Shown here in pieces: positions 24,000-35,247 of a stretch of 64,000 bases of DNA; position 1 is the first letter of the stretch, and each line of letters opens with the position of its first letter. This DNA is from Halothiobacillaceae bacterium. Lineage in GTDB: Bacteria > Pseudomonadota > Gammaproteobacteria > Halothiobacillales > Halothiobacillaceae. The notes under the pieces were generated by a model. The model was not told the origin of the DNA, did no database searches, and worked only from the letters and a program-made list of their open reading frames with translations. The DNA lies in NCBI GenBank assembly GCA_016938615.1, contig JAFGUH010000023.1:1-64000 (forward strand), read 5' to 3'. Position numbers and translations under genes: made by a program.

Positions 24000-24245
24000 C
24001 CACCTCGGCGCGGATGCCAACCTGCTGCAACGCGTTTTGAGCCGGTAAGGGGGCGAGTCGAATGTCCGCCACGGCAGAGTCGTTTCACTTTCCCGAGGGC
24101 GACAACGCCGCGGATGCCAGGCTCTAAGCACGCCCGCGTGGCCATTCAAGCCGCCCGTCTCCGCGTTGAGTCGTCCGCACCACGAGTCTGGATCACGAAC
24201 GGCCCGACAAGCCGACGAAGCACGACCGTCGCGCCGAGGTTCGCC
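24000..24245. repeat. Dispersed intergenic inverted-repeat element, diverged copy 1
   Basis: Termini CACCTCGGCGCGGATGCC / GTCGCGCCGAGGTTCG; internal blocks TTTTGAGCCGG, GGGCGACAACGCCGCGGATGCCAGGCTC and GATCACGAACGGC..GACAAGCC shared with 33198-33466. Confidence 0.65.
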
Positions 24246-24812: not shown

Positions 24813-25093
24813 GGGACTCCCTGCACGAATCGATAGTGCCGGAAGCGGGACCGCCAAGGGTCCAGATGCAAGGCGCGGTGCGCGGGGAGTGGCCGTCGCC
24901 ATTTGCACACGCGTCAACGTCGCAGATGGGCCCTTGGTGGCCCGCCCGGACAGGGCTCGCGGGTTCGCTCGCACGCCGCAAAGCCGTCTCTCGACGGGCC
25001 CGTGTTATTGCCTTGGGCCCGTCTTCAAGCGGGCGCCGGACAAGCGAGCAAAACCCGCGAGCCAGAGGCGCCATCGATTCGTGCAGGGGTTCC
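24813..25093. mobile_element. ~281-bp MITE-like element abutting arsR stop codon
   Basis: TIRs GGACTCCCTGCACGAATCGATAGTGCC / GGCGCCATCGATTCGTGCAGGGGTTCC; internal inverted repeat GGCTCGCGGGTTCGCTCGC / GCGAGCAAAACCCGCGAGCC. Confidence 0.75.
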
Positions 25094-27036: not shown

Positions 27037-27170
27037 GGCATTCGTGCAGGGCTTCCTTGGCCGACCTTACCGAATGGGCGAAAGGCCCCTGCCATTCACC
27101 GCGCACGGCGCCATCGGCACGAAGCCGTCGCGGCCTCGCGTCAGACACGGACGGTTCGTGCAGACCGTCA
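27037..27170. repeat. Partial/rearranged copy of the intergenic element family
   Basis: Two same-orientation termini GGCATTCGTGCAGGGCTTCC (27037-27056) and GGTTCGTGCAGACCGTC, plus internal block GCCATTCACCGCGCACGGCGCC similar to the reverse complement of 24813-25093. Confidence 0.6.
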
Positions 27171-30043: not shown

Positions 30044-30066
30044 AGGCCACCAGAGCCCCGCAACGG

Positions 30067-30095
30067 AAAAGGCCCGAGCTTTCGCCCGGGCCTTT
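30067..30095. terminator. Bidirectional terminator-like hairpin
   Basis: AAAAGGCCCGAGCTTTCGCCCGGGCCTTT between convergent genes. Confidence 0.85.
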
Positions 30096-30141
30096 GTCAG
30101 TCTCGGCACCTCCGATGTGCCGCTGCCTCCGTTAAGCGTCC

Positions 30142-33179: not shown

Positions 33180-33197
33180 GCGTTATCGGGTCGCAAA

Positions 33198-33466
33198 GAA
33201 ACCTCTGCACAAATGCCATACTGCTCTGCGTGCCTTGAGCCGGGCAGATGCCAGGCGCTCGTCCGCCGCGGAAGAGTCATTCTCGCGTCCTCGGACGACA
33301 ACGCAGCAGACGCCCGGCTCAAGGCGCGCCCTGCGGGGCTTGGCGAGTCGCCCGTGCTCCGCGTTACGATGTCTCGACGTTGCCACCGGCACGCCAGGGA
33401 CATCGCGCCTCGATCACGAAGGACTCGCCAAGCCTTCAGCGGCATGGCATTCGTGCAGAGGTTCTC
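33198..33466. mobile_element. ~269-bp MITE-like element, most complete copy
   Basis: TIRs GAAACCTCTGCACAAATGCCAT / ATGGCATTCGTGCAGAGGTTCTC; internal 14-bp perfect inverted repeat GCCTTGAGCCGGGC (33232-33245) / GCCCGGCTCAAGGC (33312-33325). Confidence 0.8.
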
Positions 33467-33521
33467 AAGCGGACGCGGAGGTCCGCTCGACACGCACACC
33501 ACCCAATCGAGGCATACGGAC

Positions 33522-35024
33522 ATGCCCATCGCCAAGATCCACAGCCGGGCGCTGCTCGGCATCGACGCGCCCACCGTGACCGTCGAGGCCCATGTCGCCC
33601 CGGGGCTGCCGGCCTTCACGCTAGTGGGGTTGCCGGAAACCGCGGTCCGCGAATCGCGTGACCGCGTCCGGGCCGCGATCCTCTCATCCGGCTTCGAATT
33701 CCCGCCGCGACGCTTGACCGTCAACCTCGCGCCGGCCGACCTGCCCAAGGAAAGCGCCCGTTTCGACCTCGCCATCGCCCTGGCGATCCTCGCCGCCACG
33801 GGGCAGCTCCCGGCTTCGGCTAACCAGCGTCTCGATGCGATCGAATGCCTTGGCGAACTGTCACTCGACGGCGGCGTACGACCCATCCGTGGCACCCTGT
33901 CTGCCGCACGCGCCACCCGGGATGCCGGTCGGGAACTGATCCTGCCTGCCCAGGGGCGAGGCGAGGCCGAATTGATCCCGGGCGTTCGCGGACGCGCGGT
34001 ATCGCACCTGTCAGAAGCGGTTGGCTACCTCGCCGGTGAACGCGAGCCCGAGCGGCTCGTCCATCGGCCGTTGCCCCCCGCCGATCCGGCCAAGGACGGT
34101 GACCTCGCGGACGTCCGGGGGCAACCAAGAGCCAAGCGTGCCCTCGCAATCGCCGCCGCCGGAGGACACAACCTCTTGCTGATCGGTCCGCCCGGTGCGG
34201 GCAAGAGCATGCTGGCCCAGCGACTGGCCGGGATCCTGCCTCCGCTGACCGAGACGGAAGCCCTCGCGGTCGCGGAGGTCGCCGCGGTGACCCCTAATGG
34301 CTTCGACCCGGCAACCTTCGGTCGTCGCCCGTTCCGGGCACCGCACCATTCGGCCTCGGCAGTCGCCCTGATCGGCGGCGGCTCGCAACCCGGACCCGGC
34401 GAGATTTCGCTTGCCCACCACGGCACCCTGTTTCTCGATGAACTGCCCGAATTCGACCGACGGGTCCTCGAGGCCTTGCGCGAGCCGATGGAGGTGGGCT
34501 CGGTGATGATCTCCCGCGCAGCGAGACAGGCGACCTTCCCCGCGGATTTCCAGCTGGTCGCGGCCATGAACCCCTCCCCGCAAGGGACCGAGATCCAGTC
34601 GAGGGCCGCGCAGCGGTACCGGGCGAAGGTCTCCGGGCCGCTGCTCGACCGGATCGACATTCATCTCGAAATCCCGCGCGTGCCGGCTGCCGACCTCGAC
34701 CGCCCAGCGGAGCCCGGGGAGGACAGCGCCACCATTCGCGACCGGGTGATAGCGGCGCGCCAGGGCATGCTGGATCGGCAAGGGGTGGTCAATGCCCGCC
34801 TCGGCGCGCGCGGCGTCGCCGAGCAGATCCGACTGGAAAGGACGGAGCGCGACATGCTCAACCGAGCAATCGAACAACTGCAGCTGTCCGGGCGGGCCCG
34901 CGAGCGCATCCTCAAGCTCGCGCGCAGCATCGCGGACTACGACCAGCGCCCCACGATCGATGCGACGGTGCTCGCCGAGGCGATCGGTTATCGCAACCTC
35001 GAGCGGATGTTCGCGGTCAGTTAG
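33522..35024 (+). CDS. comM: YifB/ComM family Mg-chelatase-like AAA+ ATPase
   Basis: MPIAKIHSRALLGIDAPTVTVEAHVAPGLPAFTLVGLPETAVRESRDRVRAAI; GPPGAGKSML. Confidence 0.96.
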   Translation: MPIAKIHSRALLGIDAPTVTVEAHVAPGLPAFTLVGLPETAVRESRDRVRAAILSSGFEFPPRRLTVNLAPADLPKESARFDLAIALAILAATGQLPASANQRLDAIECLGELSLDGGVRPIRGTLSAARATRDAGRELILPAQGRGEAELIPGVRGRAVSHLSEAVGYLAGEREPERLVHRPLPPADPAKDGDLADVRGQPRAKRALAIAAAGGHNLLLIGPPGAGKSMLAQRLAGILPPLTETEALAVAEVAAVTPNGFDPATFGRRPFRAPHHSASAVALIGGGSQPGPGEISLAHHGTLFLDELPEFDRRVLEALREPMEVGSVMISRAARQATFPADFQLVAAMNPSPQGTEIQSRAAQRYRAKVSGPLLDRIDIHLEIPRVPAADLDRPAEPGEDSATIRDRVIAARQGMLDRQGVVNARLGARGVAEQIRLERTERDMLNRAIEQLQLSGRARERILKLARSIADYDQRPTIDATVLAEAIGYRNLERMFAVS

Positions 35025-35118
35025 GGAAGGTCTGCACAGCTGGCATACCGCTCTGAGCGCCTTGATCACGAACGACTTGCCCAGCCTTCAGTGGCATGGC
35101 CATTCGTGCAGAGGTTCC
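35025..35118. mobile_element. 94-bp internally deleted copy of the MITE-like element directly after comM stop codon
   Basis: GGAAGGTCTGCACAGCTGGCAT ... GGCATGGCCATTCGTGCAGAGGTTCC; interior CCTTGATCACGAACGACTTGCCCAGCCTTCAGTGGCATGG matches right part of 33198-33466. Confidence 0.8.
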
Positions 35119-35240
35119 TGAGCCGATGCCGCTCTGCGTACCTTGAGCCGGGCGAATGCCGGGCGTACCGCCGCCGCGGAAGGGGCGTATTCTTTTGAAG
35201 GGCGACAACGCCGCCAGTGCACCCGCTCGTTGCGAGCCGC
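35119..35240. repeat. Left-half fragment of the same element family
   Basis: GCTCTGCGTACCTTGAGCCGGGCGAATGCCGGGCGTACCGCCGCCGCGGAA...GGGCGACAACGCC corresponds to 33222-33310. Confidence 0.7.
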
Positions 35241-35247
35241 GGTGCTC

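Follow-up and report, generated by a model that had tools for sequence, protein, structure and literature searches.

A MITE with IS5-group ends and a folded core that recurs with unrelated ends in other genera

The insertion sequences of the IS5 group (IS5, ISPsy2, ISEc68 and the element L112 described below) make a 4-bp YTAR target duplication and have ends of the form GGAA(N)(N)TCTG or GGAAGGTGCG. The intergenic block analyzed here is like them in both respects but has no transposase gene, measures 268 bp rather than ~1.2 kb and has a structured interior. MITEPsy1 of Pseudomonas syringae is an IS5-type MITE with ends GGAAGGTCTGAAAAAGCC that transposes and is found at CTAG or YTAA targets (PMC3189936). 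Its ends and target are of the same kind as those of the block family, but it is 100 bp long with 18-bp ends, which places it nearer in size to 91-94 bp derivatives of the family, and no two-arm core has been described for it (PMC3189936). The intergenic repeats R0, R2, R178 (101 bp), R200 (320 bp) and R26 (352 bp) of Pseudomonas fluorescens are likewise MITE-like and located between genes but of other sizes, and the ends of R0 and R2 are also those of resident insertion sequences (PMC2718517). A relation of the core reported here to R200 or R178 is possible; no sequence comparison was made. ERIC, Correia and other folded bacterial MITEs are small, have inverted-repeat ends and give transcripts that are predicted to fold, and the block family is similarly small and inverted-repeat-ended. 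To our knowledge each of these MITEs is restricted to a single kind of end and to a narrow range of hosts, and a review of folded MITEs (PMC10969869) describes no portable core in the sections bearing on it. No published description of the family was found in the literature searched, which did not include a comparison with ISfinder.

A mobile MITE family in Guyparkeria

The window (the whole analyzed stretch of 64,000 nucleotides) belongs to a 2.4-Mb draft genome of 267 contigs in the genus Guyparkeria. The block is flanked by a BMFP-domain gene on one side and comM (Mg-chelatase-like) on the other, and it lacks coding capacity. A first-pass annotation, made from sequence alone, had placed a MITE-like repeat at 33198-33466 with inverted ends of ~22 bp and nested inverted arms. 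Block, ends and arms (GCCTTGAGCCGGGC / GCCCGGCTCAAGGC) were all confirmed in the sequence, the terminal inverted repeats extending over 26 bp (33200-33225 / 33438-33463, complementarity 88%). The right end had been set one base too far as the flanks are CAAA (33194-33197) and CAAG (33466-33469), leaving an element of 33198-33465. Its predicted fold has a free energy of -164 kcal/mol (z = -11.5 relative to dinucleotide shuffles), and an Rfam search returned no family matching the element. The features of the block are as follows.

33198..33465, + strand: complete MITE copy of subfamily S1, 268 bp (ends, length class, alignment with other copies)
33194..33197, no strand: left copy of the target duplication, CAAA (YTAR-type duplication in the family)
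33466..33469, no strand: right copy of the target duplication, CAAG (YTAR-type duplication in the family)
33198..33225, + strand: left terminal inverted repeat, forming the outer stem (repeat and fold analyses)
33438..33465, - strand: right terminal inverted repeat, forming the outer stem (repeat and fold analyses)
33226..33331, + strand: arm A, a hairpin with loop motifs AGATGC(A/C)AGGCGC and CAACGCAGCAGA (covariance model 82.7 bits; fold)
33329..33337, no strand: central mini-hairpin CCC-TGC-GGG between the arms (helix 5, unbroken in all 26 aligned elements)
33335..33439, - strand: arm B, the homologue of arm A in inverted order (covariance model 34.3 bits on the minus strand; fold)

Elsewhere in the window, a sub-threshold Rfam match to the BjrC68 sRNA (26.8 bits, cut-off 39) was observed at 30061-30134 (-), immediately downstream of a gene resembling an ammonium transporter.

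Related copies in the window had also been proposed and were recovered with blastn and the covariance model, though several are degenerate or partial.

24814..25093, + strand: second full copy, subfamily S3, 280 bp, flanks TCAG/TTAG (alignment; covariance-model arm at 24843-24947)
24002..24242, + strand: degenerate S1 copy (blastn 65.7%; arm 24025-24135, weak covariance-model match)
27037..27170, - strand: partial copy (blastn; arm at 27044-27133, weak covariance-model match)
35025..35118, + strand: short-class derivative, 94 bp (blastn 35057-35117 at 90%)
35119..35246, + strand: arm-only remnant directly abutting the short copy (blastn 35126-35246, 70%; weak arm match 35134-35239)

The TAG stop codon of comM forms part of the TTAG target (35021-35024) of the short copy, and an open reading frame ends at the duplicated TAG or TAA on 30 of 276 element sides. 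A preference for stop codons was considered and rejected, the rate per stop codon being about background by a rough estimate; stop codons at the duplicated TAR result from the YTAR target, apparently as a by-product in a GC-rich genome.

The proposal that all copies lie within 24-35 kb is true of the window only. Searched against its own genome the block gave 69 BLAST matches, 18 of them covering >=95% of its length, and more than 100 end sequences of its type are present there. At the DNA level the element is carried by 10 of the 11 genomes of the genus, the exception (G004) being 64% complete, and it was not detected in other genera of the host family. The block's end pattern was seen in no named genomes other than those of Guyparkeria and two MAGs labelled Halothiobacillus. 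G172, a genome from a different family, holds S3-like elements of 265, 266, 338 and 339 bp. No match to the Guyparkeria type was obtained when phages, plasmids and viral contigs were searched as possible carriers. An absence of further copies would have refuted the first-pass reading; many were found in the genome and its relatives.

From these and other sequences 158 end-paired elements were extracted, mostly from the genus. They fall into discrete size classes (42, 57-69, 91-94, 161-180, 193-245, 264-271, 276-280 and 332-350 bp) with a sharp length peak at 266. A 4-bp target duplication of consensus YTAR is exact in 39 of the 158, and the two sides agree at a mean of 2.65 of 4 positions compared to 0.98 in the next four bases outward, the counts at each flank position reading C/T-T-A-G/A. 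Two elements were found abutting at a shared CTAG (L007:1499-1765 and 1768-2046). The orthologous BMFP-comM gap, which is 342 bp in the window, is 65, 66 and 167 bp in G006, G005 and G010, respectively, and inspection of the sequences showed the site without the element in G001, G002, G003, G008 and G009 as well. With the orthologous site free of the element in eight relatives, the block is inserted and not ancestral intergenic sequence. Inverted ends, YTAR duplications, empty sites and genus-wide copies together establish it as one copy of a MITE.

Several further observations were made on the family. Contigs frequently break inside elements, at contig ends of the host genome G000 (e.g. C34:1-247, C265:9395-9641, C24 and C23) and in many contigs of G222, so draft genomes under-count them. 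Very short derivatives, end pairs of 42-69 and 91-94 bp, occur in G003, G000 and others (e.g. L051:380-421), the shortest being two joined ends with a ctag/ctag duplication. These may mean that ends suffice for movement or that the interior was lost later. One copy (L022:1499-1765) has its arm A interior turned round with respect to all other copies, as is expected when palindrome arms undergo recombination or template switching.

IS5-group ends and the search for a transposase

The end pattern GGAANNTCTG is common to the block family and to transposase-bearing IS5-group elements, the inner part of the end being different. The ends compared were the following.

L112 (G019), transposase-bearing IS5-group element: end GGAAGGTCTG, TTAA duplication
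L111, transposase-bearing IS5-group element: end GGAACCTCTG, one end seen
L148, transposase-bearing IS5-group element: end GGAAACTCTG, ctaa duplication
L149, which is ISPsy2, transposase-bearing IS5-group element: ends GGAAATTCTG/GGAAGGTCTG, ctaa duplication
IS5 itself: end GGAAGGTGCG

The L112 transposase contains the domains DUF772 and DDE_Tnp_1; its identity to plasmid-borne IS5-group transposases is 46-58%. As end pattern and YTAR target are shared with IS5-group elements and with MITEPsy1, the ends of the block family are of IS5-group type. The leading idea of the first-pass annotation, a non-autonomous IS5-related element, is accordingly supported by the YTAR duplication, the IS5-group end match and the empty sites.

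That no transposase is present in the window was not contradicted, and a partner was not found in the genus either. A search of the genus for PF01609 matched a single genome (G002), where the ends are unlike those of the block, and a search for PF05598 returned only one broken gene, in G004. Using the L112 transposase as query in G172 yielded no partner with matching ends. The only intact DDE_Tnp_1 transposase of the genus, which we take to be IS4-like, is located in L038 (G002:C10:37507-38220); this locus was rejected as partner, its ends GAATGGCGCTAAGTTAAGC being unrelated to those of the block. A 3.6-kb end pair in G003 (L039) was rejected as an autonomous element on account of mismatched flanks, ctaa/caag.

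The folded core and its apparently interchangeable ends

The interior of the element is a core of ~206 bp in which two homologous hairpin arms stand in inverted order around the mini-hairpin, forming a cloverleaf with the ends, and one covariance model matches both arm A and arm B. The consensus of 84 copies of 264-271 bp (alignment A1) folds into an outer stem and two arms. Double changes are found in 43 of its 70 pairs, and 96.8% of cells pair, compared to 79.8% in shuffles and 31-40% with partners slid. The stems of subfamilies S1, S2 and S3 differ throughout, with the loops AGATGCAAGGCG, CAACGC-GCAGAT, GCGTTGC and GCGCCTTGAT unchanged. The same was evaluated in 26 elements of 51% mean identity, of which 21 come from genomes other than those of the genus and G172 (alignment A4). 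In one common cloverleaf 93.4% of cells pair, compared to 59.6% shuffled and 37-43% slid; double changes occur in 89 of 99 pairs with a covariation score of 0.85 vs 0.21, and column conservation is highest in the loop motifs and the central CCC/GGG. The shuffles control incompletely for kinship of the sequences, which the slid control retains. Stems have thus been rewritten by paired changes while loop motifs stayed fixed, a result obtained without a phylogeny-aware test. A conserved folded structure, raised in the first-pass annotation as an alternative to a mobile element, is therefore also supported by covariation among aligned copies, and the two ideas are compatible. Private stem mutations within the genus are mostly uncompensated, for which reason single copies look free to decay.

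A longer form of 338-340 bp was observed in two unrelated families (L133:1505-1842 and L137:1505-1843 in G172; L257:1501-1840 and L276:1130-1469 in G337). It carries an insert of ~72 bp that in each case follows directly on GTTG in arm B and contains about three small hairpins, the first with loop ACATCC(C/G)TGT. Read on the other strand this loop, ACA(G/C)GGATGT, resembles the binding motif of CsrA/RsmA.

Distribution of the core was investigated with an arm covariance model (R1) at a threshold of E <= 1e-4. Because R1 derives from a single genus plus one relative, distant members are under-counted; its calibration is short. Matches were obtained in 89 of 369 gammaproteobacterial genomes, representing 70 of 271 genera, and in 45 of 399 genomes of a phylum sample, of which 20 lie outside the class, mostly in one family. 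Outside the Gammaproteobacteria, matches were observed to concentrate in family f207 (15 genomes, several genera). The core pattern was not found in viral contigs. Among 48 loci outside the genus, two oppositely oriented arms separated by a few bases were found in 36 and paired inverted ends around the arms in 40. The 42 elements measured, of which 38 come from outside the genus, have a near-constant total length, with a mean of 267.6 bp and most at 264-272. Hosts of the core include Pseudomonas, Halomonas, Azotobacter and Pseudoalteromonas. The element is intergenic in all 5 annotated plasmid or chromid cases (Pseudomonas aeruginosa PA83, Azotobacter and three Pseudoalteromonas), a count that leaves out the Halomonas sp. 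PA16-9 record, which has no usable gene annotation. The genes on either side of the PA83 and hisS-ispG copies are co-directional, a setting in which read-through is likely. Two Pseudoalteromonas species were seen to share the hisS-ispG site (L310:1502-1763 and L311:1502-1752), indicating that the element can persist in place; the two copies differ by few changes.

The ends found around the core are of several types.

GGAAACGCTGATTAATTCG: L228
GGGCACCTCTATTAATAGC: L231
TAGTACTCTTTCAAGGTAATAA: L237, L243, L245
TAGTGTAGTGCGTCACTCTTGG: L240
GAACGTGTT: L283, L299
GAGCGTGTT: L289
GGGCCTGTTGACG: L307
TATACCCAA-CTACCTCAAGATG: L304, L309
GGAAGGTGCGAATAAGTCC, the ends of IS5 itself: L302

No copy of the IS5-ended L302 element was found in Escherichia coli genomes and plasmids. 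Elements with TAGTACTC-type ends measure 266-269, 340, 245 and 108 bp and mostly stand in CTAG; a plasmid search for a transposase with this end alone found nothing, and none of the unpaired ends at the examined loci leads into an evident transposase, judged only by the length and start of the longest open reading frame. The core of L242 is 83-85% identical to those of L240 and L236 at an end identity of 42-46% (random best-shift 37%), and for L296 and L292 the corresponding values are 75% and 38%. The same core is thus joined to several unrelated end types in dozens of genera at an almost constant length, which could not have been seen in one window. As similar cores carry dissimilar ends, it is likely that ends have been exchanged on one core; the route of exchange is inferred and was not observed. 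Sharing across genera with quite different ends also suggests that the interior fold itself is the selected part.

Role of the fold and rival explanations

Whether one strand is favored was evaluated from mispairs. In copies from the genus, the mispairs G·T and A·C occur at equal frequency over the whole element with no strand asymmetry, in part explained by the dyad symmetry of the arms. Inversion of the arms means that on either strand one arm is read in each sense, which makes it necessary to test the arms separately. In the comparison across genera, for which only Watson-Crick matches were used to define pairs, arm A read 5'-GCAAGGCGC..GCAACGC-3' showed 86 G·T and 23 A·C (30 sequences vs 4), and arm B, located by its ends and not by the model, 76 and 45 (24 sequences vs 8). 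A reversed control gave the mirror image of the ratio. The search model favors G·U, so the arm A figure is inflated and arm B is the fairer estimate. An excess of G·T in both arms in the same sense suggests that a folded single strand, RNA or single-stranded DNA, is under selection, although the test within the genus shows no excess.

The explanation we lean towards, by a small margin, is a MITE with IS5-group ends and a persistent, portable folded core. An IS5-group DDE transposase, now missing or only occasionally met, would have moved the element in trans, and the core would be a persistent lineage that swaps ends to use whichever transposase is present. Two roles for the core are envisaged. 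A role at the RNA level is ranked first on the basis of same-direction intergenic settings and strand symmetry, and, in the absence of transcript or binding data, we give it slightly less than even odds. A read-through transcript would fold into a stable cloverleaf, to which a host protein binds or which lets an intergenic insertion be tolerated. With arms in inverted order, either strand would carry one arm in the active sense whatever the orientation of the element. Ranked second, a role as folded single-stranded DNA aiding copying or excision is possible. Against the overall explanation stand the absence of a transposase with matching ends in the genus and G172 and the possibility that template switching upholds the fold in part. 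A bolder reading, which we hold to be somewhat less likely than not, has one core lineage in Gammaproteobacteria and some other Pseudomonadota exchanging ends repeatedly and in this way being moved by unrelated transposases, with the dyad-symmetric cloverleaf, legible on both strands, selected, probably as RNA.

One rival explanation is an ordinary IS5-derived MITE with palindromes kept by mutation alone, template switching between the arms producing paired changes in a functionless fold. It is favored by paired private changes even in the outermost end bases, where pairing as such is not known to have a role in DDE transposition, by the equality of G·T and A·C within the genus and by the L022 copy with its inverted arm interior. 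We nevertheless consider it unlikely. Unpaired internal-loop motifs and fixed mismatches persist at 51% identity, where palindrome correction should erase them, the excess of G·T over A·C across genera has the same sense in both arms, and the shared core with different ends is left unexplained. It is also possible that the core works as DNA, with single-stranded hairpins or a cruciform binding a host or transposase factor and thereby helping copying or excision. The arms are very stable, their dyad symmetry suits double-stranded DNA, and DNA hairpins tolerate G·T pairs better than A·C. However, internal hairpins are not known to be required for DDE transposition in the IS5 group, and derivatives of 42-94 bp with target duplications have no arms.

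Two other readings can be practically ruled out. If the block were a non-mobile gene for a conserved structured RNA, or an intergenic terminator, and the repeats its paralogues, the very stable fold and the intergenic position would be accounted for. This reading is opposed by the target duplications, the abutting L007 elements at CTAG, the many loci per genome and the lack of an Rfam match, and the empty sites contradict it as a complete explanation. Alternatively, the likeness across genera could have arisen by convergence, or the covariance model, given its narrow origin and short calibration, could have over-reached on GC-rich hairpins. Yet matches are full-length with E down to 1e-19, they sit in elements that have two arms, a constant length and inverted ends, the last being absent from the model, 280 of the 369 class genomes have no match and the loop motifs are near invariant.

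MITEs are usually viewed as shrunken copies of insertion sequences with an irrelevant interior; here the interior is conserved and the ends are replaceable. The arm model also provides a search tool for a large class of intergenic repeats that were unannotated where seen here. If the explanation we favor, a MITE with a persistent portable core, is true, the purpose of a MITE interior becomes testable by swapping arms and ends, and a MITE can constitute an independent, long-lived lineage instead of the debris of an insertion sequence.
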